From contig JAJQCT010000029.1 of NCBI GenBank assembly GCA_021202555.1, positions 1 through 64,000 on the forward strand: DNA of 64,000 bases, written 5' to 3'. The notes beneath the pieces are model-generated. The model did no database searches, was not told the origin of the DNA, and saw nothing but the letters and a program-made list of their open reading frames with translations. Below, one piece after another: positions 697-39,427 of the stretch (positions within the stretch are counted from its first letter, which is position 1; every line of letters starts with the position of its first letter). This DNA comes from Clostridiales bacterium. GTDB lineage: Bacteria > Bacillota > Clostridia > Oscillospirales > CAG-272. The translations under genes and the position numbers were made by a program.

Positions 697-722
697 AAGC
701 CCCTCGCTGGGAGGGGCGCACT
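697..722 (-). terminator. Intrinsic terminator of the recombinase operon
   Basis: On minus strand GCCCCTC-CCAGC-GAGGGGC followed by TTTTTT. Confidence 0.75.
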
Positions 723-773: not shown

Positions 774-2477
774 TTACAAAAAATTTTGCCCACCGCCTCT
801 GGCTGCCCCCCCCCTGCCACAGGAGACCGCGGGGCGGCAAAAAAAACCCCCATTTATTTTAAATCCCCAAAACCCCCCTATCCTATATACCCCCCCCCCC
901 GCAAATGCGTTTATAATCACATCATGCCACTGCCATGTAATTTCGATGTGACGTTTATCGTATACGGTCACCCGCTCAATGAAGCTCTCGGCGATGCGCC
1001 TCGTCAATCCCTTCTCATTTTCAAAAAGATTCACTCGTTTTGAAATCTCCATCGATTCAGATATAATGCCTGCGCTGCGAAGCTTTCCCAAGCACGCGGT
1101 GATTTCGTCTGACCTCGTTCTTATTTCACTTTGTTTTGCTGTCAGAGCCTCTTTCTGATTCAAAAATTCCTCCTTTCCGATTCGCCCCTCACTGTAAGCC
1201 CTGCAAAGCGCGCTCTTCCGTTTGCCGATTTCCTTCATTTCAATATCAGCCATATCCGCCCTCTCCCGCAGCAGCCGCAAATTGTCCCATCGCGTCTGCT
1301 CCGCATTTTCTGCGTCTCCCGAAATTATACGCACGAGCGAAACCCACATTCTTATTGCGAAAAAAATCGTCTCGCTCAATTCTTTTTCGTCAGTATATTT
1401 TCTCATACAGCCCGCGTCAATACCCGTCGCAGCACGATGCTCGCAGCGAAATCTGCCCCTGCCGTTATTTTTTGAATACCACATTGCATAGCCGCAGAAG
1501 CCGCAGAACAATAATCCCTTCAGCGGATAGTCGTTCGACCCGACGGGCACACGTCTTACAGTATTCATGCATTCCTGCGCCGCACGGAACACCTCCATAC
1601 TCACGATTGGGGGATGATGATTCAAAATGCGCAGCGGCGCGCCGGACGCTTCTGTTTTACGAAATCCGGGGACAATATTCGTCCTTTCCTGACCGATATA
1701 TGTTCCCGCGTAAGTCTCGTTTGATATAACATCCCTTACCTTTGCGCTGTCCCATCCCGCGTATTCTCCGATTTCCCCGAAGCTTTTCTCCTTGCCGTAA
1801 ACATGGTGTGAGCGGTTGTACGCCTCCCGCGTCAGTACGCCCTCCGCGTTAAGTCTCCTCGCTATCGCGCCCGGATTCATACCCCCGCACGCCAGCTCAA
1901 AAATATACCTTACAATCGCCGCCGCCTCCGTATCGATTATGACGGAGGAGGGATTTTCGGGGCAGCGAAGATACCCGAACGGTCTTGCCGCCGCCACATA
2001 TTCTCCGCTCTGCCGTTTCATATGAACGGTGGATTTGATTTTTCGCGAAAGATCGCGGCTGTAGAAGGTGTTCACGATATTCTTCACCGCAACCTCCATC
2101 CGGCGGTCACTTTTGTCTTGGCTGTCGTATGAATCGGCAACAGAAAGAAATCGCACGCCGAGAAGCGGGAACAAAAGCTCCAGATAATCCGCCGCCTCCA
2201 TATAATTTCTGCCAAATCGCGAAAAATCCTTGACAATAACGGTATTTACTTTGCGCCGCACAATAAGCTCCAGCATTCGCTGAAAAGCGGGTCTGCCAAA
2301 CGTCATACCGCTGTAGCCGTCGTCGATAAATTCCTCCGATTCCTCGTTTTTTAAATCAGAATGCTCCGATATGTAATCGTAAAGAAGCTTCCTCTGATTC
2401 TCCACACTGTAGCTCTGTGACTTATACTCTCCTATGTCCTCGTCAGACTGCGAAAGCCTTATATAAAGCGCTATCAT
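774..2477 (-). CDS. Large serine recombinase (resolvase + recombinase + zinc ribbon), copy C; C-terminal tail depends on a G11 tract
   Basis: MIALYIRLSQSDED..., KDFSRFGRNYMEAADYLE, zinc ribbon FCGFCGYAM...C; 4-bp overlap with upstream recombinase. Confidence 0.93.
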   Translation of the reverse strand: MIALYIRLSQSDEDIGEYKSQSYSVENQRKLLYDYISEHSDLKNEESEEFIDDGYSGMTFGRPAFQRMLELIVRRKVNTVIVKDFSRFGRNYMEAADYLELLFPLLGVRFLSVADSYDSQDKSDRRMEVAVKNIVNTFYSRDLSRKIKSTVHMKRQSGEYVAAARPFGYLRCPENPSSVIIDTEAAAIVRYIFELACGGMNPGAIARRLNAEGVLTREAYNRSHHVYGKEKSFGEIGEYAGWDSAKVRDVISNETYAGTYIGQERTNIVPGFRKTEASGAPLRILNHHPPIVSMEVFRAAQECMNTVRRVPVGSNDYPLKGLLFCGFCGYAMWYSKNNGRGRFRCEHRAATGIDAGCMRKYTDEKELSETIFFAIRMWVSLVRIISGDAENAEQTRWDNLRLLRERADMADIEMKEIGKRKSALCRAYSEGRIGKEEFLNQKEALTAKQSEIRTRSDEITACLGKLRSAGIISESMEISKRVNLFENEKGLTRRIAESFIERVTVYDKRHIEITWQWHDVIINAFAGGGVYRIGGFWGFKINGGFFCRPAVSCGRGGAARGGGQNFL

Positions 2478-4213
2478 TGATTTTCCTTCGCCTCCGTCAC
2501 ATACTCACGTATCAGCCGCTCCGCGTAATCCTCAAGCCCGAATGTAACCGACAGGTATCCGCTCACGCCATATTCCACGCGCTCCACCATCGCCTCCGCA
2601 AGCCCCCTCGTCAGTCCCGCGCAAAGCAGCCTCTCCGCTACATTTTCCTCATCTGACTCAATTATTTCAACCGATGAATACGGCGCGAGCATTACTGTCC
2701 CGCCTTCCTGCGGCGAGCCTCCCGCACCGTCAAAAAGCGTCAATTTAAGCGCGTCGCATGGGTCGGCGACAGTATCTTCCTCAATTTCGGCAAGCCTCTC
2801 CCTGACCTCGCGCAGTCTTTCAAGGTATGCTTCCCTCGCCTCCGCATAATCGTCCCCGACTGATTTTTTATCCGCGAAATCCTCGTAAAGCCGGTGCAGC
2901 CCGTTTTTTATGTTCGTCTCCTCCGCCAGCAGCAATTCCGTTTCCGCACGCCTATGCTTAATTGCCTCACACGCAGCAGATTTTATCACGCCGTCATCAG
3001 CCTCAACTAAAATTCGGCATCTTATAAGGTCGAGCAAAATTTTTCTGACCGTGCGGTCGGAAACGCTGCGAGCCTTAGCGCAGCAGGAGGGCGCATCCGC
3101 GTCGCCGCGCCTGTAATTATAGTAATTTCCGCAAATATAAGACCGACGCCGAACATCCCCGCGTCTTGACACACGCGAATAAAGCATCGCGTGTCCGCAT
3201 TCCGCACAAAAAATCAGCCCGTTCAGTACGTCGGGATTTTTCTCCCTTATCTCCGCCTTGCCGTCAACGGCTTCTTTTCTCCTGCGGGAGTTATAATCGC
3301 GTATCTCACGCACAGCCTCGAAGGTCTCTTTGTCCGTCAGCGCGTCGTGAGTGTCGGGAAAGGTCATAATCTCCCCTTTTCCGTAGACGTTATATACGGT
3401 TTCCCCTATGTACGTGCGGTTTTTCAGCAGATTTCCCACCGTGTAATTGCTCCATTTTCCCGTTGTCTTTCTTTCACGCTTATATCCGAGCTGCCTTTTT
3501 CTTTCAAGGGGCGTCGGCGCGCCGAGAGCTTCCAGCCTGCGCACAGTCTCCGTCACGCCAACTCCCGCTGCCGTCCATTTGAACATCAATCGCACAAAAT
3601 CCGCGGTCTCGGGATCGGGAATCAGCCTGTAACTGCAATCCGGCATTTTAAGATACCCGTATGGCGCAAGATTGATACCCGCCACTCCCCTCATATGATT
3701 CAATCTTATCGTGTTTGTTATCTTCTGACGAATGTCTATAATGTACATTTCGTTTACCATGTTTTTTATCGGTACCATGATGCTGTTCATCCCGTCGTCG
3801 TCAATGCTGTCATATCCGTCGTTGACGGAAATAAAGCGAATGCCCTTTTTCGGGAAGAGCTTTTCAATGTAATATCCCGCGTCAACATGATTTCTCCCGA
3901 ACCGCGAAAGATCCTTGACGGCGATACAGTTGATTTTGCCCGCATCCACATCGTCCATCAGCCGTTTGAATTCGGGACGGTCAAAGCTCATCCCCGACCG
4001 CCCGTTATCCACGTAGCATCCGACAAACCGAAGCTCCGGTCGTCGCTCTATATATTCCTTCACATACCGCACCTGATTTTGAAGCGAGCGCGAATCGTCA
4101 AGACCGCTGTTTTCATGTGAAAGCCGCGCATAGACGGCTGTATTCCACACTTTTTTTCTCGTCCGTTCAATATACCGCTCTGTTGATTTCGGTATTCTGT
4201 CACGTCTCCCCAT
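2474..4213 (-). CDS. Large serine recombinase, copy B
   Basis: NTAVYARLSHENSG, KDLSRFGRNHVDAGYYIEKLFP, zinc ribbon FCAECGHAML...CGNYY...CC. Confidence 0.94.
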   Translation of the reverse strand: MGRRDRIPKSTERYIERTRKKVWNTAVYARLSHENSGLDDSRSLQNQVRYVKEYIERRPELRFVGCYVDNGRSGMSFDRPEFKRLMDDVDAGKINCIAVKDLSRFGRNHVDAGYYIEKLFPKKGIRFISVNDGYDSIDDDGMNSIMVPIKNMVNEMYIIDIRQKITNTIRLNHMRGVAGINLAPYGYLKMPDCSYRLIPDPETADFVRLMFKWTAAGVGVTETVRRLEALGAPTPLERKRQLGYKRERKTTGKWSNYTVGNLLKNRTYIGETVYNVYGKGEIMTFPDTHDALTDKETFEAVREIRDYNSRRRKEAVDGKAEIREKNPDVLNGLIFCAECGHAMLYSRVSRRGDVRRRSYICGNYYNYRRGDADAPSCCAKARSVSDRTVRKILLDLIRCRILVEADDGVIKSAACEAIKHRRAETELLLAEETNIKNGLHRLYEDFADKKSVGDDYAEAREAYLERLREVRERLAEIEEDTVADPCDALKLTLFDGAGGSPQEGGTVMLAPYSSVEIIESDEENVAERLLCAGLTRGLAEAMVERVEYGVSGYLSVTFGLEDYAERLIREYVTEAKENQ

Positions 4214-4780
4214 TTATCCCCTCTCCTCTCCGTTTTGCGGCGTCAGAGCGCACATATCGCTCGATTTTTCGTTCTCCTGACCATTATACGCACGGCGCAT
4301 CAGAAAGCTGCGATATTCAGAGCGCCTTTGCTTAAAATATCTCCCCTCCGCCGCACTCGCCGCATCCGCATAACTGACATTTCCCGTATCAAAGCCTGTC
4401 TGCACATCCGCAAACCGAATCCCGCAGGGAATAAAAAACTCATTGACCGCGCTTTGCAGCGCATAGACCGTGGGCGCCACAGTGCCTGCGGCATAGATAA
4501 CGACAGCCTCAATCGCACCCGTCTCCGCGTCGTCAAGCAGTCGTTTCCACGCCTCATTATTCTCGGCAATCCACGCATTTCTCTCCCTGATGTCGGGAAC
4601 CCTTCTCACCGCCGCCCGCGTATCGCGGTAAATTCGGGTCAGGCGCAGCGTTTCGTCCGCCCTCACGTAATCTCTGCAAGCCGCCTCCGCATAGTTTATA
4701 TCCACAAAATCTCCCCATACGCTCGGTGCAATATAAAGCGCTGTCCTTTTCTTCTCATCAGCCCTCGTCATGCCCGTCAT
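4214..4780 (-). CDS. Diverged serine-recombinase-like protein lacking the catalytic Arg motif
   Basis: TALYIAPSVWGD aligns with TAVYARLSHENSG; WKRLLDDAETGAIEAVVIYAAGTVAPTVYALQSAVNEFFIPCGIRFADVQTGFDT aligns with FKRLMDDVDAGKINCIAVKDLSRFGRNHVDAGYYIEKLFPKKGIRFISVNDGYDS but the SRFGRN segment is lost; within the recombinase operon. Confidence 0.75.
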   Translation of the reverse strand: MTGMTRADEKKRTALYIAPSVWGDFVDINYAEAACRDYVRADETLRLTRIYRDTRAAVRRVPDIRERNAWIAENNEAWKRLLDDAETGAIEAVVIYAAGTVAPTVYALQSAVNEFFIPCGIRFADVQTGFDTGNVSYADAASAAEGRYFKQRRSEYRSFLMRRAYNGQENEKSSDMCALTPQNGEERG

Positions 4781-6413
4781 CTTCCCCTCCGTTCATAATC
4801 GTATCATAAATCGCGTCAGTGTCCCTGAACGCTATTTCCGCGCGTCCGTCACCATATATGAAAATCTTATCAAAAAGCTCCGCTATTATGGGACGGTCGA
4901 GCGAAATTATGCTTCCGTTTTCACGAAAACTCCGAATCCACTCAGCCTCACGATAAGCGTCAAGCTCTCGCCTGCGATCCTCGGTCACACGCTCAAAAGC
5001 CGCCGCGGCGCTTTCGATTTTTCGACCGTACATCGCTGAATATTCGGAATATTCCTCCTCCGTCAGAATACCTGAAGCACTGCTCTCGTAAAGTCCGGAT
5101 TTAAGCTTTGTGTATCGCTCGATTTCCTCACGTATCCGCAAAAGCTGCTCATCCAGACGGACAACCCGCATTCCGCGTTCGGGAAGGCGACCGGCTTCGT
5201 CGAGCAGCCGCTCCTTTTTCACAAAAAGAGCAATTTGCGCGCAAACAGCGTCCAAAACGGATTTGTATGCCCTCTCCTCCGCGATGCGTCCGCCACGCCT
5301 CTCCGTGCCCCTGCAGTCGGGACAGCAGTAATATTTGTACCTTTTATCCTTGTAGCGGGATGCCCGGATTACAAGCTGCCTGCCGCATTCGCCGCAAAAA
5401 AGAAAGCCGGAGAAGAGTTCAGCGCGTTCCCTGCCTTCGGCTAACCTTGTATCTCTTTTCATAAGTTCCCGCACCGTGAAAAATACCTCAGCGTCAACTA
5501 TTGCCTCGTGCGTTCCCTCCGTCCTCGTCCATTCGTCGGGCGGCAGATACACATTTTCACGTGACCTGTAATCGATCTTTTTCCATTTTCCCTGAACGAG
5601 CGTGCCGATATAGCACTCATTATGAAGGATTCGATAGACGATTCCCTTTGACCACATTGCTTTGTCCCCGCGCTTGAAATAGCCCGAAATCTTCTCCCCG
5701 TTTGAAGTCCTCTGCTCGTATGGCGACAGCACTCCCTGACTGTTCAGCTTATCGGCAATTGATTTATAGCTGTATCCTTCAAGCTTCCAGAGAAATATCT
5801 GCCTTACGTGCGGAGCCGTAGTTTCATCCGGAACGAGCCTTCCCCTGTCGCGCTTGTCCCTGCAATATCCGTAGGGCGTGAAATTCGCCACGCACTCGCC
5901 GCGCCTGCGCTTCGCTTCAAGTTGTGTCTTGATTTTCACGGAAATATCCCGACAGTAGATGTCGTTTATGAGGTTTTTCATAGGCAAAATGAGTGCGTCC
6001 GATTCCGAGCGTCTGCAAAGACTGTCGTAGCAGTCGTTCACGGCTATCATCCTCACGCCCATAAGCGGAAAAATGCGCTCAAGATACCGTCCGACCTCAA
6101 TGTAGTTTCTACCGAAGCGCGAAAGATCCTTTACGATAACGCAGTTCACCGCGCCGCATTCAATGTCATCGTACATTTGCCTGAATGCGGGTCTGTCAAA
6201 ATTCGAGCCGCTCCAGCCGTCGTCTACATACTCCTCCACCACACAAAATTCGCTCTTCCCGCTGACAAAATCCTCGATAAGCCTGCGCTGATTCACAATC
6301 GAGTCGCTCTCCTGCTTGTCCCCGTCATCCTTTGAAAGGCGCAGATAGACTGCCGTGCGGTAAACGGTGACTCCCCGACGCGCGGCGCCTTCAAAATCAT
6401 TTTTTGCTGCCAT
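4758..6413 (-). CDS. Large serine recombinase, copy A
   Basis: RTAVYLRLSKDDGD, KDLSRFGRNYIEVGRYLERIFP, zinc ribbon FCGECGRQLV...CCPDC. Confidence 0.94.
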   Translation of the reverse strand: MAAKNDFEGAARRGVTVYRTAVYLRLSKDDGDKQESDSIVNQRRLIEDFVSGKSEFCVVEEYVDDGWSGSNFDRPAFRQMYDDIECGAVNCVIVKDLSRFGRNYIEVGRYLERIFPLMGVRMIAVNDCYDSLCRRSESDALILPMKNLINDIYCRDISVKIKTQLEAKRRRGECVANFTPYGYCRDKRDRGRLVPDETTAPHVRQIFLWKLEGYSYKSIADKLNSQGVLSPYEQRTSNGEKISGYFKRGDKAMWSKGIVYRILHNECYIGTLVQGKWKKIDYRSRENVYLPPDEWTRTEGTHEAIVDAEVFFTVRELMKRDTRLAEGRERAELFSGFLFCGECGRQLVIRASRYKDKRYKYYCCPDCRGTERRGGRIAEERAYKSVLDAVCAQIALFVKKERLLDEAGRLPERGMRVVRLDEQLLRIREEIERYTKLKSGLYESSASGILTEEEYSEYSAMYGRKIESAAAAFERVTEDRRRELDAYREAEWIRSFRENGSIISLDRPIIAELFDKIFIYGDGRAEIAFRDTDAIYDTIMNGGEDDGHDEG

Positions 6414-6443
6414 AAATTTACTCTCTCCTTTCCAAACATCAGC

Positions 6444-6734
6444 TCATCCGCACACGGTGCGAATGTAATGACAGAGTGAATCCTCCATGCTGCGCCTCCC
6501 CGCGAAGCTCACCTTAACGACTATACCGCCATCCAGATAACAGTACGGGTTTTTAATCTGGCGGATAAAGTCAAGAACCCGCTCCAAGGGCGGCAAAGAC
6601 GTGTCGATTTTGACCTCGGCAATATCAACAAGCGTCGATACGTCAACCGTCCGCACATCCACCCTCTTCATTTCCTCCAGCCGTGCCAGAAGCTCGGCTG
6701 CCTCTTCCTTTGTCAGTCTCCTGTTCTCGCTCAT
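6444..6734 (-). CDS. DUF6870-like small protein, first gene of the recombinase operon
   Basis: VDVRTVDVSTLVDIAEVKIDTSLPPLERVLDFIRQIKNPYCYLDGGIVVKVSFAG...; RBS GGAGGAG. Confidence 0.7.
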   Translation of the reverse strand: MSENRRLTKEEAAELLARLEEMKRVDVRTVDVSTLVDIAEVKIDTSLPPLERVLDFIRQIKNPYCYLDGGIVVKVSFAGRRSMEDSLCHYIRTVCG

Positions 6735-6780: not shown

Positions 6781-6893
6781 GGAATAACATTTTAATTCGG
6801 TTATAAAATATGCACATTATGTACGTTCCTCTCGGTTTCGTCAAGGCTACCCCGACCTATTTAACAAATTTTCCTTTTGGGAACAGTGTATTC

Positions 6894-6922
6894 AGTATAT
6901 ATTATTGCCCGAAGCTTGTCAA
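6894..6922 (-). promoter_or_regulatory. Sigma-A-type promoter for the recombinase operon
   Basis: Minus-strand TTGACA-17 nt-TATACT. Confidence 0.65.
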
Positions 6923-7055: not shown

Positions 7056-7084
7056 TTGACAAATCGTCGATTTTGTGGTATAAT
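7056..7084 (+). promoter_or_regulatory. Consensus sigma-A promoter for the TerB/BrxD/BrxHI-like operon
   Basis: TTGACA-17 nt-TATAAT, 41 nt upstream of the ATG at 7125. Confidence 0.85.
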
Positions 7085-7124: not shown

Positions 7125-9014
7125 ATGTCAAAAATCGAAAACAGTGAGGACGATTTTTGGAATCTGTCCCCGTTTTTGCCCAAAAGAGACGCGGACGACC
7201 GCGCGGTGCGCTCAAAATCTGATGCTGTCGCGCGTGACACCTCGGCGGTTGACATTGAAATTCCCGTTGACGTAAAAACAGATGTTAATATTACCGGCGA
7301 CGGCGGCGCAAAGCCATCAATAAGCAGGCTCGCGCTGCGCTTCCGAGAGGTCGAGGTCAAAGGTACCGCCGCAAGACAGAATACCGAGCCGAAAAAAAGC
7401 GCTTACAAAGACGAAGCTTTGCGTGAGGCGCGTCCAAAGCAGGTATCGATTCCGAAGCTGAATCCGAAGCCGCTTCCGACGACTGAGGGCAAAGCGAAAT
7501 CCGAGCGGGAAAGCGTCAGCCCGGGCTTCTTTTACGGACGGCGCGGCGAGACGGAGGCGCCCGAATACGAGTACGAACTGACAAACTGCCTTATCACAAA
7601 GGCTTCCGTATTCAAGATACGCTCAACGCACGATTTTTACTCGGGTTTTCGTTCGGACGCAAAGCGCTATTTCGGCGTTGTCGGAAAAAAGGCGGAATTT
7701 GCGCCGTATTTCTCGTATACGCCGCAGTACCGTCAGATGAGCACCGCTCAGCTTGCGTACTATTTCTGGTGGCGCGAAAACGTCCGCGCATCCATATATC
7801 CCGACACGGACTACACCTATATTCTCCTTTACATTTTCGAGATAATCAATCTTCCCGACCTTATTCCTCCGAGCAAGGGGCTTGACGCTTTGTGCAGCAT
7901 TTGGCTCGCATACAGGGAAAAATACAACGCGATTGACAAAAACCTTGAGATTTGGGTCATGGACTATTGCCTTTTGTATAAGCTTCCCTGCCCGACCGAC
8001 AAGCTGAAGCCGATACTCGGTGAAATAGTCTCAAAAAAGAATATGCGGTACTTTTACGTGACATATAAGGACGGCAAAATCGACGCAAAAGCGCTCATTG
8101 AAATTTTCTCGGATTATATGTGGAAAGACAGTGTATTCGACAAAGAACCCGAGTCAGGCGAGAAAAGCCGCAGGGATCCCGATTTTTACAGCCGCCTTAT
8201 CATCGGAGCCCTTGAATATGTCATAAACGAAAAGCAGCTTCTGAGGATTGAAAAATCGGATTTCAAGCCTTCATGGGCGCTGCACTATCTTTACTGCGGA
8301 GCGCTCGTATCAGACAGCGTAAACCGCCATATAAGGCTTGAATACCTGAAGTTCAATCGCGAAAGCGAGCTTCGCACGCCGATTACGGCAGCTGTAAAAT
8401 ATTCAGAAAATAAGGTGCGCGCATATCTCGGAATCCGTTCAAGACTACAGGCAAAGGGGCTGCCTCCGAAAATCGCGGAGGCAATCGACGAGTATTTTGA
8501 AATAAAGCTGCCTATGCCTCAGGCAGTGAAGAAAAAGCCGCAGGACGACGAGGAGGAGGAATACGCCGCCGAATATGAGCCCGAATCTGACGTGCTTGAC
8601 ATCACCTCGGCAAGGGATATTGAGAATAAATCGTGGGAAATCACCGAAAAGCTCACGGAAAGCATGGCGGCGGAATCCGAGCCGGAGGCGACATCGGCAG
8701 ATGCGGAAAAAGCAGAGCACGAAACCGTGACATATGTCGAAATTTGTGCAAGCGACGACGAGAAGGGCGATGCGAGCGAAACGCTTCGCGGTGCGCTTGA
8801 CGATACCCTGCTGCGGTTTCTCGATACGGCGCTTTCGGGCGACGGTGCGGCTCAAAGTGAGCTTTGCCGAAAATCGGGAATATACGCCGACAGCGCCGCC
8901 GCAAAAATAAACGAAACCGCCGTCGATATAATCGGCGACATTGTGCTTACGCCGTCAGAAGACGGGAAATATTACGTAATAATTGAGGATTACAGAGAGG
9001 AGGCGTCAGTGTGA
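7125..9014 (+). CDS. TerB_N / TerB_C domain protein
   Basis: FAPYFSYTPQYRQMSTAQLAYYFWWRENVRASIYPDTDYTYILLYIFEIINL is TerB_N-like; C-terminal IGDIVLTPSEDGKYYVIIEDYREE is TerB_C-like; start chosen at the RBS-preceded ATG rather than at 6810. Confidence 0.8.
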   Translation: MSKIENSEDDFWNLSPFLPKRDADDRAVRSKSDAVARDTSAVDIEIPVDVKTDVNITGDGGAKPSISRLALRFREVEVKGTAARQNTEPKKSAYKDEALREARPKQVSIPKLNPKPLPTTEGKAKSERESVSPGFFYGRRGETEAPEYEYELTNCLITKASVFKIRSTHDFYSGFRSDAKRYFGVVGKKAEFAPYFSYTPQYRQMSTAQLAYYFWWRENVRASIYPDTDYTYILLYIFEIINLPDLIPPSKGLDALCSIWLAYREKYNAIDKNLEIWVMDYCLLYKLPCPTDKLKPILGEIVSKKNMRYFYVTYKDGKIDAKALIEIFSDYMWKDSVFDKEPESGEKSRRDPDFYSRLIIGALEYVINEKQLLRIEKSDFKPSWALHYLYCGALVSDSVNRHIRLEYLKFNRESELRTPITAAVKYSENKVRAYLGIRSRLQAKGLPPKIAEAIDEYFEIKLPMPQAVKKKPQDDEEEEYAAEYEPESDVLDITSARDIENKSWEITEKLTESMAAESEPEATSADAEKAEHETVTYVEICASDDEKGDASETLRGALDDTLLRFLDTALSGDGAAQSELCRKSGIYADSAAAKINETAVDIIGDIVLTPSEDGKYYVIIEDYREEASV

Positions 9015-10441
9015 CTGTCAATAACAAAGAAAAAAACGCAGATGTCAAGGACAACAAGCGAGTGCCGAAGCGCATACTTTCGGGGCTTATGAATTCCCTT
9101 TCAGCCGGTGTCGTGCCGCGTTCCGGCGCGCCATATATCGCAATCGGACGCACGGACGAAATATCGGCGCTTCTCTCCGACCTTGACCGCACAGCAGGCG
9201 GCGAGGCGGCGATGAAGTTTTTGATAGGGCGATACGGCTCGGGCAAAAGCTTTCTGATACAGCTCATGAGGGGATACGCGCTTGAGCGCGGATTCGTCAC
9301 AGCCGACTGCGACCTTTCGATAGAAAGGCGCCTTGCGGGGTCAAACGGGGGAGGTCTTGCGACTTACCGCGAGCTTATCAGGAATCTGGCGACAAAGGCA
9401 TCTCCCGACGGCGGCGCGCTGACAGGCATTTTGTCGTCGTGGATATCCGACATCAAGTCAAGGCTTGTCATGTCGGGGCTTGAGGTAGGCTCGGATGAAT
9501 TCAACAAGCGCGTAAAGGCGGAAATTTTTTCCGTGCTTCACAAAATCGAAAACGATGTCGGCGGATTTGAAACCTCATACGTCATATCGACGTATTTTAC
9601 CGCGTGCGAATGCGGCGACGAGGAGACAAAAAGCGCCTGCGTCAAATATCTTCGCGGCGAATTTTCATCAAGGCGCGACGCAAGAGCGTACCTGCCCGGC
9701 GTAAGCTCAATAATAACCGACGAAAACTGGTACGACAGAATAAGGCTTCTCGCGGGTCTTTTCGCCGAAATAGGCTACAGCGGATTTGTCGTATTTATCG
9801 ACGAGTGCGTGAACCTTTACAAAATCCCGAACAAGATAAGCCGCGAAAACAATTACGAGCGCATTCTCACAATGTACAACAATACTCTTGAGGGCGGCGC
9901 CGCGCATCTCATGATTGTGATGGCGGGAACGCCTCAGTTTCTCGAGGACAGGCGGCGAGGACTTTTCAGCTATGAGGCGCTTCACAGCCGTCTTTCGGAC
10001 GGCAAATTCGACACGGGCGAATACGTCAACATGATGGGTCCCGTCATAAGGCTGAAGCGGCTGTCAAAAAGCGAGCTTCTTGCGCTTGTTCTGCGCGTGA
10101 CCGCGCTTCATTCGCAGTACTATAATTGGACGCCGAGAATTGCCGAGGACGATCCGGAGAAATTTGTCGCCGCGTGTCTTTCAATGGCGGGCGCGGAAAT
10201 AATGGTGACGCCGCGGGAAATAATACGCGACTATATTCACGTTCTTAATATACTTTACCAGAATCCGACCGCAGAATTTTCGGATATTGTAAAATCAAGC
10301 GTCACGCTCACTCCGGCGGGCGAGGACGACGAAAATATCGAGGCGGAGGCGGATGATGACAATGACGGCGGCACGGATGCCGCTCCCGAGGCGCGGCGCG
10401 ACACGGGTCGCAATTTTAACCCCGAGGACATCATTCTCTGA
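9011..10441 (+). CDS. BrxD-like P-loop ATPase (BREX system ATP-binding protein family, DUF2791-like)
   Basis: FLIGRYGSGKSFLIQLMRGYALERGFVTADCDLS (Walker A), GFVVFIDECVNLYK (Walker B); GTG start overlapping the TGA of the TerB gene. Confidence 0.8.
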   Translation: MTVNNKEKNADVKDNKRVPKRILSGLMNSLSAGVVPRSGAPYIAIGRTDEISALLSDLDRTAGGEAAMKFLIGRYGSGKSFLIQLMRGYALERGFVTADCDLSIERRLAGSNGGGLATYRELIRNLATKASPDGGALTGILSSWISDIKSRLVMSGLEVGSDEFNKRVKAEIFSVLHKIENDVGGFETSYVISTYFTACECGDEETKSACVKYLRGEFSSRRDARAYLPGVSSIITDENWYDRIRLLAGLFAEIGYSGFVVFIDECVNLYKIPNKISRENNYERILTMYNNTLEGGAAHLMIVMAGTPQFLEDRRRGLFSYEALHSRLSDGKFDTGEYVNMMGPVIRLKRLSKSELLALVLRVTALHSQYYNWTPRIAEDDPEKFVAACLSMAGAEIMVTPREIIRDYIHVLNILYQNPTAEFSDIVKSSVTLTPAGEDDENIEAEADDDNDGGTDAAPEARRDTGRNFNPEDIIL

Positions 10442-10443
10442 CA

Positions 10444-12717
10444 ATGGGCGGCTCGGAGGAATACACGGCGAACGAGGTATTTGAGCTTTTCTCGCCGTTC
10501 ATACAGGATTTTATATACAGTCACGGCTGGAGCGAGCTGCGCGAAATGCAGATTTCAGCCGCAAAGACGATTTTCCGCACGGACAATGACCTGCTTTTGA
10601 CATCGGGCACGGCATCTGGCAAGACGGAGGCGGCGCTTTTCCCCATTCTCTCGCAGTTTTACGAGGACCCGCCCACATCTGTCGGCGCGCTCTATATAGC
10701 GCCTCTCAAAAGCCTTATAAACGACCAATATCAGCGTGTCGGTGAGCTATTGTCCATGACGGGAATAAACGTCACGTACTGGCACGGCGACGTGGCACAG
10801 TCGCATAAAGCAAAGCTTTTGAAAAAACCGTCGGGAATACTTCAGATTACGCCCGAATCGCTTGAGGCAATGCTCATGAGGCGCTCGGCGGATCTGGTGC
10901 GCCTTTTCTGCGATCTGCGCTATATCATAATCGATGAAATCCACACGCTCACAGGCACAGACAGGGGAAATCAGGTCATATGTCAGATTACACGCCTTTC
11001 GCGCATGATAGGACACAGCCCGCGCAGAATCGGGCTTTCTGCTACTGTCGGCAACGCTGTACTTGCGGCGGATTGGCTCACGGGAGGCGACGACAGAGAG
11101 TGTGACATTCCGACTGAAGCAAAGCGCCCCGTAAAATGGCGGCTCGGCGTTGAGCATTTTTATATTGCGAGTGAAAAAACGCTTCCTTCAGGCGTTCACG
11201 AGGTGAGAAAATCCCCTTCCCTCGGAGATATGGAGCCTGACGCCTCACAGCTTCCCGCATCAATCGACCCCGGATACGAATATATCTACGACTGCACAAA
11301 GGATATGCGCGCGCTCGTCTTTTCAAATTCGCGCGAGGAAACCGAATACGTCTGCGCGACGCTTCGACAAATAGCGAAAAACCGGCGTGAGGACGATGTT
11401 TTTTACATTCATCACGGCAATCTTTCGGCGTCAATCCGCGAGGAGGCGGAGGCAGTTCTGAAGGATGAGGAAAGGCGCGCCGTTTTGTGCGCGACGACAA
11501 CAATGGAGCTTGGAATCGACATCAGCAGGCTCGAACGAATCGTGCAGAACGGCTCGCCTATTTCGGTATCGAGCTTTTTGCAGCGTCTCGGGCGCTCGGG
11601 GCGCCGCGGTGAGCCGCCCGAAATGATGGTGGTGCTTCGCGAGGACAACCCGCCGCCGAATACCCCGCTGCCGCAGCTTATCCCGTGGGAGCTTCTGCGC
11701 GCAATAGCAATAATACAGCTTTATATCGAGGAGCGCTTCATCGAGCCGCCGCCGGTGCGCAAAATGCCATTTTCGCTTCTCTTTCAGCAAACCCTTTCGA
11801 TGCTTTATTCATCAGGCGAGCTGACGCCAAAGGAGCTTGCCGACCGCATTCTGTCACTGCCGCCGTTTGAATTTATCGGGCGCGAGGACTACAGAACGCT
11901 TCTTATCTCGATGATAAAGAACGATTTTATCGAAATGACGGACGAGGGGGGTCTTATCGTCGGAATAAAGGGCGAGAGACTTACGGCGGGATTCCGCTTT
12001 TATGCCGTATTCAAGGACGCGGAGGACTTCACCGTCAGATGCGAATCGGGCGAGGTCGGCACAATAACAAAAGCGCCGCCGATTGGCGAACGCTTTGCCC
12101 TTGCGGGAAGAGTATGGGAGGTAGAGGAGCTTGACATTCCGCATAAGCTCATTTACGTGAAGCCCGTCGGCGGAAAAATGGAAATCGCGTGGCCGGGCGA
12201 GCTTGGCGAAATTCACACGAAAATACTCGCGCGTATGTACCGCGTTTTAGCGGAGGATACGGTTTATCCCTACCTGAAGGATGGCGCCGCGGCGCGGCTC
12301 GATGCCGCGCGAAGCACGGCGAGAGCTACGGGAATGCTCGATTTTCCGCTCATTTCGCTCGGAGGTATGTCATACTGCTTTTTCCCGTGGCTCGGCACAC
12401 GCTCATTCCGCACGCTGCGCCGATATATCTCGAAAAAGTCGGGTGAATACAAAATCTCGGGAATTGAGTACGAGGGAAGCTGCTATATCACATTCAGAAT
12501 GGAACGCGGCTCCGCTGAGGCGCTTTACCGCAACATAAAGACGGATTTCATCCGCGGCGTGGATCCCGCAGACCTTGTGGGGCAGAATGAAACGCCCGCG
12601 TTTGACAAATACGACGATTACGTCCCCTCGGAGCTTCTGCGAAAGGCTTATATCGCGGAAAAGCTCCGAACGGACGAAATTAAAGAACGCGCCGAAAACG
12701 ATTTTAAGATCATTTAG
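10444..12717 (+). CDS. SF2 DEAD/DEAH helicase, BrxHI/Lhr-like
   Basis: LLTSGTASGKTEAALFPIL, YIIIDEIHTLTGTDRG, GLSATVGN, QRLGRSGRRGEPPEMMVV. Confidence 0.85.
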   Translation: MGGSEEYTANEVFELFSPFIQDFIYSHGWSELREMQISAAKTIFRTDNDLLLTSGTASGKTEAALFPILSQFYEDPPTSVGALYIAPLKSLINDQYQRVGELLSMTGINVTYWHGDVAQSHKAKLLKKPSGILQITPESLEAMLMRRSADLVRLFCDLRYIIIDEIHTLTGTDRGNQVICQITRLSRMIGHSPRRIGLSATVGNAVLAADWLTGGDDRECDIPTEAKRPVKWRLGVEHFYIASEKTLPSGVHEVRKSPSLGDMEPDASQLPASIDPGYEYIYDCTKDMRALVFSNSREETEYVCATLRQIAKNRREDDVFYIHHGNLSASIREEAEAVLKDEERRAVLCATTTMELGIDISRLERIVQNGSPISVSSFLQRLGRSGRRGEPPEMMVVLREDNPPPNTPLPQLIPWELLRAIAIIQLYIEERFIEPPPVRKMPFSLLFQQTLSMLYSSGELTPKELADRILSLPPFEFIGREDYRTLLISMIKNDFIEMTDEGGLIVGIKGERLTAGFRFYAVFKDAEDFTVRCESGEVGTITKAPPIGERFALAGRVWEVEELDIPHKLIYVKPVGGKMEIAWPGELGEIHTKILARMYRVLAEDTVYPYLKDGAAARLDAARSTARATGMLDFPLISLGGMSYCFFPWLGTRSFRTLRRYISKKSGEYKISGIEYEGSCYITFRMERGSAEALYRNIKTDFIRGVDPADLVGQNETPAFDKYDDYVPSELLRKAYIAEKLRTDEIKERAENDFKII

Positions 12718-32941: not shown

Positions 32942-33655
32942 TTACACCGCAGCATAAAGAATGTCTTCCGCACCATATGGGACACGGTCGGCAATTTTTC
33001 CGTTTTCAAATAAGAATGCGCCGCCGACAGCATCGGGATTTTCCGAAATCGAATTGACAAGAAGCGCTTTTTTTGCGGCGAGATTTGACCTCTCGGCGTA
33101 CTCCTCCTCACAGCTTTTCCACTCGGCGGCGGAGAATGTAACGTAAATCGACCAAAGCAAAATACCGTCCGTCCTGAAGCGTTCGGGGCATTCCCACATA
33201 TCGCCGCAGAGAGCGATTCTGAATTTTTGTCCCTTGTAGATAAAATCCTCGCTTATTTTTCCCTCACGGTAATGCTCATCCGCAAGAGCGGTGTCCTTCC
33301 AGCCCGACGATATACGGCGATAATTATGAAGTATCGCGCCGTCGGCTATGACGGCGCATGAGGAATAAAGGTCATTGCCGTCGCATTCAACGTATCCGAG
33401 ACATAAATCGACGCCATATCTGCGCGTCATGGCACATATTTTGCGGAAAATGTCATCGTCACGCGCGATGCCGACATTAAGGTCGTGCGGATAATTGAAA
33501 TTCAGAGCGTCGAAGCCCTGCAAAAACGTCTCACCAAAGCAGACAATGTCAGCCCACCCGTGCGCGGCTTGCAAAGCCCGCTCAATCTGTGAAATATTGA
33601 ACGCGGTATCGCCGTTGACAAAGCGATATGCCGCAAGTGCGATTGTTAGGGGCAT
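32942..33655 (-). CDS. Carbon-nitrogen hydrolase family protein
   Basis: HGWADIVCFGETFLQGFDAL (Glu), ALCGDMWECPERF, NSISENPDAVGGAFLFENG. Confidence 0.8.
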   Translation of the reverse strand: MPLTIALAAYRFVNGDTAFNISQIERALQAAHGWADIVCFGETFLQGFDALNFNYPHDLNVGIARDDDIFRKICAMTRRYGVDLCLGYVECDGNDLYSSCAVIADGAILHNYRRISSGWKDTALADEHYREGKISEDFIYKGQKFRIALCGDMWECPERFRTDGILLWSIYVTFSAAEWKSCEEEYAERSNLAAKKALLVNSISENPDAVGGAFLFENGKIADRVPYGAEDILYAAV

Positions 33656-33668
33656 GAGGTTATTCCCA
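33554..33668. repeat. 115-bp direct repeat, left copy (island boundary)
   Basis: Identical by eye to 37780-37894. Confidence 0.95.
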
Positions 33669-33990
33669 TTCGATTCTCACAAGCGCGCACTAAACAAATT
33701 TGCTTTTGTAATTTAGCTGTGAGTTTCTGTTTTATTTGTATTATCGGAAAGACGCAAACTATCCGATTTTTGTTGTCATTCTGTTGCCACGGTTATATAT
33801 TTTTTCACCCAAAGCTGGTGGTGTGTTTATCTCGGTATCGCAAATAATTCCATTTGTTTCAATAATAATCGCTGAATTTCTCAAAATTTCTATGAAACAA
33901 TCCGAAACCGAAGTTGATGAGCTATTATAATTTGCCGCCGCTGTTTCACTATATGCGTTATACTGTAGTTGTTGTATCACCAGATTCATT

Positions 33991-35010
33991 CTACCGTTCG
34001 GTATTAATTGAATCAAATTCGTGTTTCCAACCTTCAAATGCTCTATCATCGTTAATTCGTTGTTGCTGTCCGGCAGGAGTTTGTATTGTTTGCATTACAA
34101 TTATTCCTTGCGAAATGAAAGAATAACTTCCTCCTGGCAAACTTTCAAGTAACCCCCCCCCCTTTTTTTTTGATAGTATATTCACCATTATGTTTTTTTT
34201 CATAGCACGAGGGGCAAATGTTTCGCCAAATCCAAGTTCAGCACTTATACATCATATATAGCTTTGATAACACCATATAAGTTTTCATCAGGCTTGATTA
34301 TATTCAGCCCTAAAGTGTTTTTTGCTTTCCAACGATTAATAGTATAATCATGACTGCCAAATTCACTACAAAGGAACGAAATAATCTGTTTTATCTTATT
34401 AGGATCGGTAATTTAATTAATCAATAGCTTTCCAGCAAACATCTTGATTTGTGCTCTTGAACGGTATACATTGCCAAGAACAAGTGGATGAACACTATCG
34501 GACAGCTTTATAAGAATATTAGCAGGAGCAAGGTCTTCCTTTATTGACAGTTCTTCCTTAGCAAATTCTAAATATCCCTTAACAGCTTTACGCTTACTGG
34601 CATAGTTGCTGTTGGATTATTTGGGATTTGCGGATTTAAGGGAATATTTATGCTGGGATCAATCGGTCCTAGAGTAGCTTGCTTGGTCATAATTATTGAA
34701 TTAGCACCAATACATATCAAAGTTCCTGCACTATACGCTTTATGTAGAATAATAACTTGTAGCTCATCGCAATACTGCCGCAAAAGATTGATGATATTCC
34801 ACGCTGCCGCAGTATCCCCTCCACGAGTGTATAAATACAACAAAATTTTAGGTATAACGCCAATTTTATCTAAGTGATTAATAAATAAGTCTATCACATC
34901 CTGTACAATTTGTGTTTCAAATCCCTTTCGATCACTGGTACATATGTAATAACTTTAGCGTTCAAGGAATTTTCTAACTCTTTATATAAATCCAATCTGT
35001 TTGTGTACAT
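33991..35010 (-). pseudogene. Decayed SDH-type (serine dehydrogenase proteinase, ClpP/SppA-like) protease
   Basis: Conceptual joined translation: MYTNRLDLYKELENSLNAKVITYV/TSDRKGFETQIVQDVIDLFINHLDKIGVIPKILLYLYTRGGDTAAAWNIINLLRQYCDELQVIILHKAYSAGTLICIGANSIIMTKQATLGPIDPSIN...; frameshifts near 34935 and 34597, nonsense TAA at 34414-34416, further frame change near 34250. Confidence 0.7.
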
Positions 35011-35019
35011 TAATTTTCC

Positions 35020-35730
35020 TCACTTCAAATGCTCATGCAAAATTCGCTTTATGGTTTCTTGTGCTGTTTCTTCGCCAGCTAAGCTAACCAGCCTATTATA
35101 ATCCTCTATTTCACCGCCAGTAAATATGATGGATATAACTTTCTCCACTCGTCCTGCAACATGATCATAGTCCTCGGGATGTGCCCAAAAACAACGCAAA
35201 CAAAAATCTCTATCTTTTTTCTCCCAATTTGTACAATGCTCACATGTCCATGACTTAGCTCTGTTTGCAGAAGGGCTAAGAAGCATAAAATAATCAATAT
35301 CTTTTTCATCATGTTCGCCCCCGATTTCGTAGGGGACTCTGTGATCAACCTGCAAGATAGTGTCATCCATTTTTTCAAGATAGATAAAACATTTTGCGCC
35401 GTATTTCTCAATCAAAGCTTGCATTAATGCCTTGGAGAGAACAGTTCGACCAGATGCTTTGGAAAGAGCGTTTTTGGCGTCATCGGGATTGCCAAATTTA
35501 TATGCCGCAATACTTCTACCATCTGCACCTTGTACTCTATATGTCACGAGGGGAATACCATATTCTCTCACATCTCGAACGGCTCTTGGTGGATGATTAT
35601 ACCCATAAACATCCTTTAATTCTTGAGATGTAACATAACCATTTTTTAGAATATGCTGAATAACTGTGCGTGGTCTCTTGGCGGTTACCGACTCCAATAA
35701 CGCCAGGAATTCCTTAGAATATTCACTCAT
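35020..35730 (-). CDS. HNH restriction endonuclease-like protein
   Basis: QVDHRVPYEIGGEHDEKDIDYFMLLSPSANRAKSWTCEHCTNW...DFCLRC: HNH core with Cys pairs; adjacent to the methylase. Confidence 0.75.
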   Translation of the reverse strand: MSEYSKEFLALLESVTAKRPRTVIQHILKNGYVTSQELKDVYGYNHPPRAVRDVREYGIPLVTYRVQGADGRSIAAYKFGNPDDAKNALSKASGRTVLSKALMQALIEKYGAKCFIYLEKMDDTILQVDHRVPYEIGGEHDEKDIDYFMLLSPSANRAKSWTCEHCTNWEKKDRDFCLRCFWAHPEDYDHVAGRVEKVISIIFTGGEIEDYNRLVSLAGEETAQETIKRILHEHLK

Positions 35731-35756
35731 GCCATTGCCTCCAATAAAGATAGTTG

Positions 35757-36635
35757 TTAGGGAACACTGTTAAAAATAGGCAACAGTGCCTCGCTAATGT
35801 ATAATGCTTCAAAAGTTGTTGATTTTTTCCCCAACAACAATGCTTGGCTGGAAAGACCGGCATTTAGCATGAATTTCTGGCAATGCAAGCTGGAAGGAAG
35901 TTCCTCTCCGTACTCTTTTCCGCCACATTCACCATCATAGCTAATTAAGTAGTCAATGCCTTTTCTTTCAAGTATTTTAATGGATTCCGCAAATTCATCA
36001 AAGGGGACACCGGCAAAATATCTGTTATCTCTTACATTGCTAACACCTTGATATGGTGGATCCATATAAACCAAATCGCCTTGCTGTGCCATTTCTAAAA
36101 CCTCATGGTAATCAAGAAATGAAAAAGTAGCCTTTCCATTCATAAGTCGTGAAATTGCATAAACATTTGGTGCCAGTGTTTTAGGACTTGTTCCGTGTCT
36201 GCGTTTATCGGGCGATTGGTTAAAGTTACCGTTTTTGCCATATCTCACGGCTCCTTTAACACAGCGTGCAAGCAAATAGAGCATATTTTCTGGAGTTTCT
36301 TCTCCGTTATTAAATTTCTCTCTTATAACAAAAAAATGTTGAACATGATCATCTCCATACAAAAACTGTTCTTCCCATATTTTTGCGTAAGCATCAATCA
36401 ATTCTTGAGGGTGTTCAATAGCAAATTGAAGCATTTTCACTAACGGAGCATTCAAATCATTTATATGAAAACTACTTGTTCTATTCTCATACGCAACTGC
36501 AACACTTACTGCTGCCATACCGGCGAAAGGCTCAATCAACCGATTAAACTTATTTGGCATAAACTGAAGAATTTGTGGTGCCAATACTCTTTTTGAACCT
36601 TGATACTGTACAATATGAGGTATTTTCCCGTTCAT
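35757..36635 (-). CDS. D12-class DNA adenine N6-methyltransferase
   Basis: YQGSKRVLAPQI, LIEPFAGMAAVSVA, DLVYMDPPYQGVS. Confidence 0.92.
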   Translation of the reverse strand: MNGKIPHIVQYQGSKRVLAPQILQFMPNKFNRLIEPFAGMAAVSVAVAYENRTSSFHINDLNAPLVKMLQFAIEHPQELIDAYAKIWEEQFLYGDDHVQHFFVIREKFNNGEETPENMLYLLARCVKGAVRYGKNGNFNQSPDKRRHGTSPKTLAPNVYAISRLMNGKATFSFLDYHEVLEMAQQGDLVYMDPPYQGVSNVRDNRYFAGVPFDEFAESIKILERKGIDYLISYDGECGGKEYGEELPSSLHCQKFMLNAGLSSQALLLGKKSTTFEALYISEALLPIFNSVP

Positions 36636-36846
36636 TTCTGTACCTCCGTTTTTCTAATTCAACTATCTCTCCTAAAACACAGTCTAAAGTAATACATATT
36701 TTGCACAATATTTCCACGGAAACATATTCATTTCGTCCCATTTTAGCTATAATATTAAAGCTTACACCAGATGCATCTTTTAATTCAGTACGATTCATTT
36801 TTCGATCTGTAAGCATTTTCCAAAGTTTATCATATGAAACAGGCAT
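36550..36846 (-). CDS. XRE-family regulator (putative controller protein of the RM system)
   Basis: MPVSYDKLWKMLTDRKMNRTELKDASGVSFNIIAKMGRNEYVSVEILCKICITLDCVLGEIVE; overlaps methylase start. Confidence 0.8.
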   Translation of the reverse strand: MPVSYDKLWKMLTDRKMNRTELKDASGVSFNIIAKMGRNEYVSVEILCKICITLDCVLGEIVELEKRRYRNERENTSYCTVSRFKKSIGTTNSSVYAK

Positions 36847-36971
36847 TATATCGCTCCATTCTGCTTGTTTGGACATATTGTAACACAAAATGCACGAAGT
36901 TTCAAGATGTTCTCACAAAAACATGAGTCCGAATTGTAAAAAAGCCCGAAGGATTGCTCCCACAGGCGGCG

Positions 36972-37200
36972 GTACGGTCAATTCTCAAAGGGCTTATACA
37001 CGGTCACGGCTTTTAGATACTTTACTGGATCGCCGTTCAGTATCAAATCCGCAATTCCAGCGGAGCATTATAAACAGGGTAGTACAGCTCTGACCGTTCA
37101 TACATATTGTCTGCAACCTCAATTTCCACAGCGGTACAATCAATGGAGATCAGCGTTCCGTCCTCCAGCCGTAGCTCCACAGCAGAAGCCGCATTTTCAA
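36972..37200 (-). pseudogene. Frameshifted DUF6061-like remnant
   Basis: Minus reads NAASAVELRLEDGTLISIDCTAVEIEVADNMYERSELYYPVYNAPLELR then, in another frame, DLILNGDPVKYLKAVTVYKPFEN*. Confidence 0.55.
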
Positions 37201-37201
37201 A

Positions 37202-37732
37202 TCAGTTCTGACATAATATTTTCACCCATTCCTCTTTCAAAAGACCATAGAAATAGAGGTCTGCCCAATTTCCGTTGTTGTCTTTTGTTTGACTTCTTTG
37301 TACGCCCTCTGATTTCATGCCGAGCTTCCGCATAAGCCCAACCGATTTGACACTGTCAATAGTTTCCGCAAAAACCTTATGGGCATCAAGCTCATAAAAC
37401 GCATAATCAATCACGGCTTTGCAGGCTTCGTATGCGTAGCCCTGCCGCCAATAGCTGCGATTAATAAACCAACCCATTTCATAAACGCTCGGTCGGGTTT
37501 CACTTAAAAGAATATAGCCAATCACTTTTTTCGACTGCTTGTGAACTGCCGCAGCCGCGCCGTTTTTGCCAATGCAAAAGCTATGCAAAAACTCTTTTGT
37601 TTTCCGGAAGTCATAGGCAGACTCACAATTTTTCATTGTTTCGGAGTCGCCTAAAATTTCGTAAAGGTCATCGGCATCATCCGGGGTGAAATTGCGGATG
37701 ATAAGTCTTGTGGTTTCAATATGTTTTGTCAT
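37202..37732 (-). CDS. GNAT family N-acetyltransferase (RimJ/RimL-like)
   Basis: IETTRLIIRNFTPDDADDLYEIL...GWFINRSYWRQGYAYEACKAVIDYAF. Confidence 0.88.
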   Translation of the reverse strand: MTKHIETTRLIIRNFTPDDADDLYEILGDSETMKNCESAYDFRKTKEFLHSFCIGKNGAAAAVHKQSKKVIGYILLSETRPSVYEMGWFINRSYWRQGYAYEACKAVIDYAFYELDAHKVFAETIDSVKSVGLMRKLGMKSEGVQRSQTKDNNGNWADLYFYGLLKEEWVKILCQN

Positions 37733-37779
37733 TATGGAATATTGCAATATATGCATTTTGCTTCGGTCAAAGTCGTATG

Positions 37780-37894
37780 CCACCCGTGCGCGGCTTGCAA
37801 AGCCCGCTCAATCTGTGAAATATTGAACGCGGTATCGCCGTTGACAAAGCGATATGCCGCAAGTGCGATTGTTAGGGGCATGAGGTTATTCCCA
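37780..37894. repeat. 115-bp direct repeat, right copy; spans the guaA stop and a duplicated C-N hydrolase 5' end
   Basis: Identical by eye to 33554-33668. Confidence 0.95.
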
Positions 37895-39427
37895 CTCAAT
37901 AGTTGCCGGTGGCTTTGATGTAATATCATACACAACGCGGTTGACGCCGGAGACCTCGTTCACAATGCGCGTTGACGTCGCGTCAAGCACGTCGTAGGGG
38001 ATTCGCGTCCAGTCCGCCGTCATGAAATCCGACGTTGTGACGGAGCGCAGGGCGACCGTGCAGTCGTAGGTTCTCCCGTCTCCCATTACGCCGACGGAGC
38101 GCATATTCGTGAGTACGGCGAAGTACTGATTCATCGTGCCCTCAAGCCCGGCAGCGGCAACCTCCTCGCGGAAAATCGCGTCCGCCTCGCGCAGAAGATC
38201 GGCGCGCTCCTTCGTCACCTCGCCTATTATACGTATGCCAAGCCCCGGTCCCGGGAACGGCTGACGCATGACAAGATATTCGGGCAGTCCCAGCTCACGC
38301 CCGAGAGCGCGCACCTCGTCCTTGAAAAGCAGGCGAAGCGGCTCGATTATTTCCTTGAAATCGACGTAATCGGGCAGCCCGCCGACGTTGTGATGGCTCT
38401 TTATGACTGCCGCATCTCCCGTCCCCGATTCGATAACGTCGGGGTATATCGTCCCCTGCGCGAGATAATCGACCGCGCCTATTTTTTTGCTTTCCTCCTC
38501 AAATACGCGGATAAATTCCTCGCCGATGATTTTGCGCTTTTGTTCGGGTTCCGTCACGCCCGAAAGGCGTGAGAGAAATCTCGCCTCCGCGTTCACACGG
38601 ACAAAATTGATATTCCACTTTGAAAATGCGGCTTCGACCTCGTCGCCCTCGTTTTTGCGCATAAGACCGTGATCCACAAAAACGCACGTAAGCTGCTCGC
38701 CGACCGCCTCTGCGAGAAGAGCCGCCGCCACCGACGAATCAACACCGCCTGAAAGCCCGAGAAGCACGCGCCCGCCGCCGATTTCACCGCGAAGCGAGGC
38801 GACGGCGCTTTTGCAGAAATCTCCCATCGTCCAGTCGCCGTGCGCGCCGCACACCTCGTAAAGGAAATTGCGTATCATCTCCTTGCCGTTTTCGGTGTGA
38901 TTCACCTCGGGGTGAAACTGCACGCCGTAAAATCCGCGTCCGACATCCGCAATTGCCGCAGTCGGACACATTTCCGTGTGCGCCGCCGTCACAAATCCGT
39001 CGGGCACCCTCTCCATGTAATCCCCGTGGCTCATCCACGCGACGCCCTCCGCCGGAAGTCCCTTGAATATCGGGAATGAGGTATCGTAATGCGCCTCTGT
39101 TTTGCCGTACTCGCGCGCTGTGTCTGAGGTCGCCTCGACAACCAAACCGCCGAGCATATGCGCCATGAGCTGACAGCCGTAGCAAATTCCCAGAATCGGC
39201 ACTCCCCACTCGAAAATCTCCGCGCTCACCTTTGGCGAGGAGTCGAGATAGACGGAATTCGGTCCCCCCGTGAAGATTATCCCTATCGGGGACATTTCCT
39301 TTATTTTTGAAATCGGCGTTGTGTAAGGCTTTACCTCGCAGTATACGCCGCATTCGCGCACCCTGCGGGCTATAAGCTGATTGTACTGCCCGCCGAAATC
39401 AAGCACGATTACGGTTTCATGAGCCAT
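37886..39427 (-). CDS. guaA: GMP synthase (glutamine-hydrolysing)
   Basis: [31 protein letters not shown]-terminus PPATIEWE. Confidence 0.98.

Follow-up and report, generated by a model that had tools for sequence, protein, structure and literature searches.

Introduction

Streptococcal integrative and conjugative elements (ICEs) may carry triplets of serine integrases, and these cluster by position, as external, middle and internal copies (Ambroset et al., 2016, PMC4701971). A non-phage element of Bacillus cereus, gin, also has three serine recombinases, encoded by girA, girB and girC (PMC5595907). No functional study of a tandem serine integrase triplet was found in the literature searched. 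Here we describe a related locus in a 64,000-nucleotide stretch of DNA (the window) from a gut Clostridiales bacterium of the CAG-272 lineage (GCA_021202555.1, JAJQCT010000029.1). The window is the beginning of a 165-kb contig in a metagenome-assembled genome (MAG), G000, of 1.97 Mb in 40 contigs. Near its left end lies an operon of three large serine recombinase (LSR) genes, LSR-A, LSR-B and LSR-C, with a fourth gene, X, between A and B. We read this operon, with a probability of about 0.6, as an ICE-type triplet recombination module that has gained a fourth, non-catalytic member at the A/B junction, derived from B and acting as a non-cutting subunit, the block in the window being a stand-alone or left-over recombination module.

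The integrase triplet

Five open reading frames (ORFs) were verified on the minus strand. The leading gene encodes a DUF6870 protein of 96 amino acids (aa) (6444–6734; PF21757, E=7e-29), and is followed by LSR-A (4758–6413, 551 aa), X (4214–4780, 188 aa), LSR-B (2474–4213, 579 aa) and LSR-C (774–2477, 567 aa). The names A (internal), B (middle), C (external) and X are labels coined in this analysis. The A and X genes overlap by 23 nt, X and B abut with 0 nt between them, and B and C overlap by 4 nt. Like the streptococcal triplets, A, B and C are adjacent LSRs in the same orientation, each with Resolvase, Recombinase and Zn-ribbon domains in Pfam, and each keeps its catalytic residues. No Pfam match was found for the 188-aa product of the fourth gene. 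The ORFs, domains and junctions bear out an earlier description made from the letters of the window (the sequence-only reading), which had listed three full-length LSRs, a DUF6870-like gene and a fourth recombinase-like gene, overlapping or abutting on the minus strand. A search of the open-licence literature found no paper on DUF6870.

Relatives of A were searched for in 295 genomes of the order and were found in 116 of them, many in tandem triplets; a further scan of named genomes led to 80 loci. Of the LSR clusters, 77 have three or more members; their order is A-B-C, usually 3′ of a DUF6870 gene, and such a gene stands ahead of A in most of the other triplets and also in many quartets. When 79 representative proteins were placed in a tree, A, B, C and X each came out as one clade (support 99–100; 99 for A, B and C). 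The triplet of the Streptococcus agalactiae snf2 element was placed in a further, more careful tree. Its A fragment falls in the A clade (100/99) and its C protein in the C clade (100/100). Clustering by position thus holds for A, B and C, the S. agalactiae B copy being placed only within B+X (97/89; with B alone just 68/21). From the positional clades and the placement of the S. agalactiae A and C proteins it follows that A, B and C belong, as judged from their sequences, to the known ICE serine integrase triplets of the streptococcal type, a kinship that the sequence-only reading had rightly suspected.

Distribution of gene X

Wherever it was found, X lies at the A/B junction: in four loci as a short form, in one as an intermediate and in 14 contigs at full length. 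The short form (157–188 aa) is present in the window, in two Oscillospiraceae MAGs (L228 and L203) and in G827 (L293), so that the order A-X-B-C with short X is found in three genomes besides that of the window. The intermediate form (L234) has 326 aa and has lost R71 (resolvase numbering, see below), as has the short form. The full-length proteins are mostly of 498–517 aa, and some of their contigs are near-identical. They come from Faecalibacterium prausnitzii APC923/61-1 (L082, the same as L224), G537 (L194), Candidatus Merdenecus merdavium (L211), L223, L244 and nine metagenome-derived contigs (L296–L304). The gene is rare: of 394 genomes of the order 2 have it, as do 2 of 379 in the family to which F. 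prausnitzii belongs. No other A-B gap among the 77 LSR clusters could hide an X-type gene. The 188-aa protein (ORF188), used as sole query against 196 genomes of its family, matched only itself, being too divergent, and the route through LSR-A succeeded. A scan of viral contigs for close relatives, with LSR-A and with a short-X profile, returned nothing; the full-length X profile matched eight viral contigs. The sequence-only reading would have given way had the arrangement been peculiar to one assembly; a search for the same gene order in other genomes found that it recurs.

Other arrangements of these recombinases were also seen. In L096 (12840–14725), L195 (10789–12695) and L307 (13950–15835) a fourth LSR lies 3′ of C, split into frames of ~111–131 aa and ~465–498 aa by a frameshift, by decay or as a split recombinase. 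It is a different gene from X, and a plain A-B-C-D array of four LSRs was rejected as a description of the operon. L223 carries two modules one after the other, first an A-B-C triplet and then an A-X-B-C quartet. In L194 (6839–8825) the B gene of the quartet is shortened beside an opposite-strand gene for another LSR, as if interrupted by an insertion. Three entries of 4.9–7.5 kb named ‘Bacteriophage sp.’, L304, L305 and L306 (MT837953.1, MT838759.1 and MT837168.1), consist mostly of these recombinase genes and are probably ICE fragments deposited as phage.

Fold and active site of X

The AlphaFold2 model of ORF188 has a predicted local distance difference test (pLDDT) score of 81.6, and its top Foldseek matches are all serine recombinases, the TP901-1 integrase catalytic domain ranking first (E=2.6e-6); the alignment behind the model included A and B rows, which possibly aided the fold. 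The model ends in a long, alpha-E-like helix (137–176). The predicted structure of full-length X matches whole serine integrases end to end. Full-length X has a match to PF07508, usually a weak one to PF00239, and no Zn ribbon; it thus keeps the Recombinase domain, together with a coiled-coil-like helical region. Short X has no recognisable DNA-binding domain. The models identify X as a relative of the serine recombinases with the predicted fold of their catalytic domain.

The catalytic residues, in resolvase numbering, are R8, S10, R68 and R71. Wherever the columns could be aligned they are kept in the A, B and C proteins (71–73 of 73). In the short X of the window R8 is replaced by A, R68 by T and R71 by P. 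All three arginines are lost in the short forms, Ser10 has become Ala in L228 and L203, and L293 reads YIAPA; the same proteins have acquired the invariant motifs Y[IL]AP, RIYRD and FIPC. In full-length X, Ser10 is displaced by one inserted residue and the Arg of the DRP motif is lost (5 of 5); three of these five proteins also lack R71. These substitutions make X very probably catalytically dead.

Selection and origin of X

The ratio of nonsynonymous to synonymous substitution (dN/dS) is 0.06–0.08 for full-length X (L296, L297, L298 and L300). For short X it is 0.26, with a 95% interval of 0.12–0.52 (L228 vs. L203), and for A, B and C 0.08–0.13. Between the window and G827 the identities are 57.8% for A, 45.8% for short X, 45.6% for B and 48.8% for C; overall, the other short X proteins are 46–47% identical to that of the window, and A, B and C 46–58%. 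By these measures X is under purifying selection and is not debris, and its retention suggests a working partner. Recurrence at the same junction, together with purifying selection, makes the locus a quartet variant of the triplet and not a product of decay. The sequence-only reading had called the fourth member degenerate, which describes its catalytic site well and its evolution poorly, since the gene is conserved and selected.

A tree of the N-terminal domains groups short X with full-length X in a single clade (97), which is joined to B (95), and the tree with the S. agalactiae proteins likewise unites B and X (97/89). Both forms have the motif F.P.G, found in 0 of 73 A, B and C proteins, which have FP..G. 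On this evidence X apparently derives from a copy of B.

A proposed role for X and its alternatives

We propose that X began as a copy of B, became non-catalytic and was here trimmed to the catalytic-like domain and its long C-terminal helix. Through the helix and the dimer surface X would join one of the three active recombinases, its parent B being the likeliest partner. Strand cleavage and rejoining, at sites that lie beyond C, would fall to A, B and C, and X, as a non-cutting subunit, may control synapsis or direction, and so which attachment (att) sites are paired or when excision can occur. Short X would act through protein contact. The heteromeric complex that the sequence-only reading had put forward as a possibility is plausible. 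More tentative, at slightly less than even odds, is the proposal that X is an obligate non-catalytic subunit, a recombinase-derived directionality or assembly factor for a heteromeric synaptic complex of A, B and C with X, reduced in its smallest form to the dimerisation/catalytic-like domain. The identity of the proteins, their order, its recurrence, the loss of the active site and purifying selection come from comparison, and from these we infer the role of X as a partner.

Several observations weigh against the interpretation of the locus as a triplet module with a non-cutting subunit. Elements with triplets of the streptococcal type have direct repeats of 2–8 bp at their ends and a disrupted target gene. 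The repeats found between 540 and 14300 in the search for att sites were short pairs of the kind that chance produces, and no att site was found there. The left flank of the block is possibly misassembled (see below). Any recombination by A, B, C and X, singly or jointly, is a prediction from sequence. Most full-length X proteins keep R8 and a serine shifted by one residue, with which residual catalysis is possible. Pairwise-distance correlations are all high and point to no single partner of X; any choice of partner is a guess. With respect to origin, a trio of short X proteins was compared by hhalign, and the B profile (E=4e-9) was a better match than the X profile (E=3.5e-7); a grouping of short X with B was not rejected by the approximately unbiased test (p-AU 0.25). 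Short X may thus have arisen from B independently of full-length X, with two origins at the same spot; in the 79-protein tree, too, window-type A does not group with the A of full-length-X loci. The common clade and F.P.G motif of the two forms, their identical position, and the intermediate length of the L234 protein with its lost R71 argue otherwise, and we regard two origins as unlikely, though a possibility of some weight.

That X is a decaying duplicate, a pseudogene without function, would fit the lost catalytic residues and the want of a recognisable DNA-binding domain in the short form. It is very improbable in view of open frames that overlap or abut their neighbours in the short-X loci, low dN/dS even at the upper bound for the short form, an identical position in every quartet and new conserved motifs. 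X could also have its role away from the recombination complex, perhaps in regulating how the operon is transcribed or translated, and overlapping genes would permit translational coupling. The predicted fold and helix are typical of recombinase dimers, and full-length X retains the Recombinase domain and the helical region; we therefore consider such a regulator distinctly improbable. A non-cutting partner of the integrases remains our preferred interpretation of X.

The promoter-like site and the left boundary

The recombinase operon has a promoter-like sequence on the minus strand at 6894–6922, TTGACA-17-TATACT, which matches the consensus at 11 of 12 positions. At the other end, a terminator-like hairpin (699–717, minus strand) is found within a repeat. 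Positions 1–718 contain a partial gmd gene (GDP-mannose 4,6-dehydratase) and upstream DNA, a chromosomal flank of which a second copy begins another contig of this genome, C9 (G000:C9:1-732; 93% nucleotide and 99% aa identity). The homology to contig C9 ends 55 bp beyond the stop codon of LSR-C. The hairpin is inside this repeat and is therefore probably part of the gmd flank rather than of the element. Thus, where the sequence-only reading gave the operon a promoter and a terminator of its own, the promoter-like site holds, and the hairpin exists but is probably not the element's. The congener G472 likewise has two gmd copies.

The final ~45 aa of LSR-C (about 774–905) are unconserved and traverse poly-G tracts, and C proteins elsewhere typically stop near residue 520. 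The tail passes runs of nine and eleven C residues (C9 and C11 tracts, the poly-G tracts), where slippage or a misjoin is possible. With a duplicated gmd, poly-G tracts and the contig edge, the left boundary is uncertain. The junction of LSR-C with gmd could be an assembly join at the repeat, and the block boundary an artefact. The contig edge, the 93% repeat and the poly-G tracts favour such a join, which is nevertheless unlikely, if not negligibly so, given that the contig C9 homology ends outside the C gene; and since A-X-B-C is seen again in other genomes, the doubt touches the boundary alone. Contig C9 (L151) itself has two G10 tracts, at 942–951 and 1095–1104. The second is directly 5′ of TGCAAGTGTTGACATATGTCAGATAGTGTGGTATAATAGG and the first precedes a similar stretch; phase-variable promoters operating by poly-G slippage are possible there.

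The Shango operon and mobility context

Divergent from the recombinases is one plus-strand operon (7125–12717) of SngA (TerB-N/TerB-C; 7125–9014; PDLC03958, E=2.4e-45), the ATPase SngB (9011–10441; PDLC03959, E=1.4e-151) and the helicase SngC (10444–12717; PDLC03960, E=1.1e-235). All three are best PADLOC hits, which identifies a Shango defence system. The start of SngA is most likely at 7125 and not at 6810; a perfect TTGACA-17-TATAAT promoter is found at 7056–7084, 5′ of that start. Every one of the 11 genomes of the genus has SngC, and synteny of SngABC-DinG or SngC-DinG is seen wherever the contig extends far enough, and SngABC-DinG is also kept in relatives without the recombinase block. 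The congener G116 gave no A relative in the order-wide search. Taken together, SngC in every genome, the DinG synteny and a congener without A indicate that Shango is resident in the genus, a neighbour of the module and not a component of it. An element of 12 kb comprising recombinases and Shango was ruled out, Shango being resident with DinG. In L158 and L159 (G473 and G159) SngC and DinG are adjacent, and neither SngA nor SngB was found beside them; SngC may outlast the other Shango genes.

The sequence-only reading had also raised the idea that the block works in the service of the neighbouring defence-like operon. Moving or switching that operon would be examples of such service. Adjacency and divergent promoters would suit this, as would an LSR beside SngC in L105. 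The residence of Shango in the genus, with DinG alongside, the congener without an A relative, and the lack of any LSR match in 12 other Shango loci and their flanks (L066–L077) leave it scarcely credible. As far as these data go, the recombinase block is beside Shango by chance, whether it arrived there or was retained.

Two modules with full-length X (L224 and L244) adjoin a relaxase gene, and L224 also adjoins MobC, as expected at an ICE end. A relaxase of the MobA/VirD2 type (PF03432, the one relaxase family searched) was found neither in G000 nor in G558, and in G557 only off the contig of the module. By this search of a 97.8% complete MAG, G000 shows no element that unites a relaxase with a conjugation module, as an ICE would. 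Since no such relaxase was found in G000 and Shango is resident, the module sits alone, and the genes to the right of the block in the window are chromosomal. The short-X modules are either ICE remnants or small independent modules. No empty site could be identified through the HSP20 gene that lies upstream of SngA in relatives; 3 of 11 genomes have this gene, and G000 lacks it. Orthologs of NnrD in two congeners have a different neighbourhood. Elsewhere in the window, at 33000–38000, G+C falls to 0.37–0.41 (otherwise mostly 0.49–0.56) and a D12-class adenine methyltransferase is encoded at 35757–36635; this region is probably an island.

Comparison with known systems

A conserved dead X makes the question of why these elements have three integrases testable. 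Should X prove necessary, or prove to determine direction, the triplets would be one heteromeric machine rather than three independent integrases, and X would be a natural, recombinase-derived control subunit, possibly useful for steering serine integrases.

CcrA, CcrB and CcrC of staphylococcal cassette chromosome mec (SCCmec) are likewise LSRs, with more than one per element. Their profiles match the window proteins weakly, at 43–86 bits against NCBIfam curated cut-offs of 700–900, and the CcrAB pair of SCCmec differs from three recombinases with a dead one. In gin, girC is separate from the girAB operon, excision needs only GirC and the 42-aa directionality factor GirX, and the accessible part of the report describes no dead recombinase (PMC5595907). 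Recombination directionality factors such as phiC31 gp3 and GirX are small direction-setting partners, as X, by analogy, could be. To our knowledge, no factor of this kind is related to recombinases, and X differs from them as a recombinase relative whose role we infer.

The nearest likeness is to the ICE triplets of streptococci, including S. salivarius, which are also tandem, same-orientation sets of three serine integrases with positional clades (PMC4701971; PMC7563491). The module in the window differs in having no conjugation genes alongside. A conserved dead fourth subunit of a triplet was not found in the open-licence literature searched, and in the accessible texts the streptococcal sets are described as triplets only, in contrast to the locus described here, where a probably dead X stands between the internal and middle copies. 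Triplets were already known; their conserved and, by its residues, dead fourth member appears to be new.

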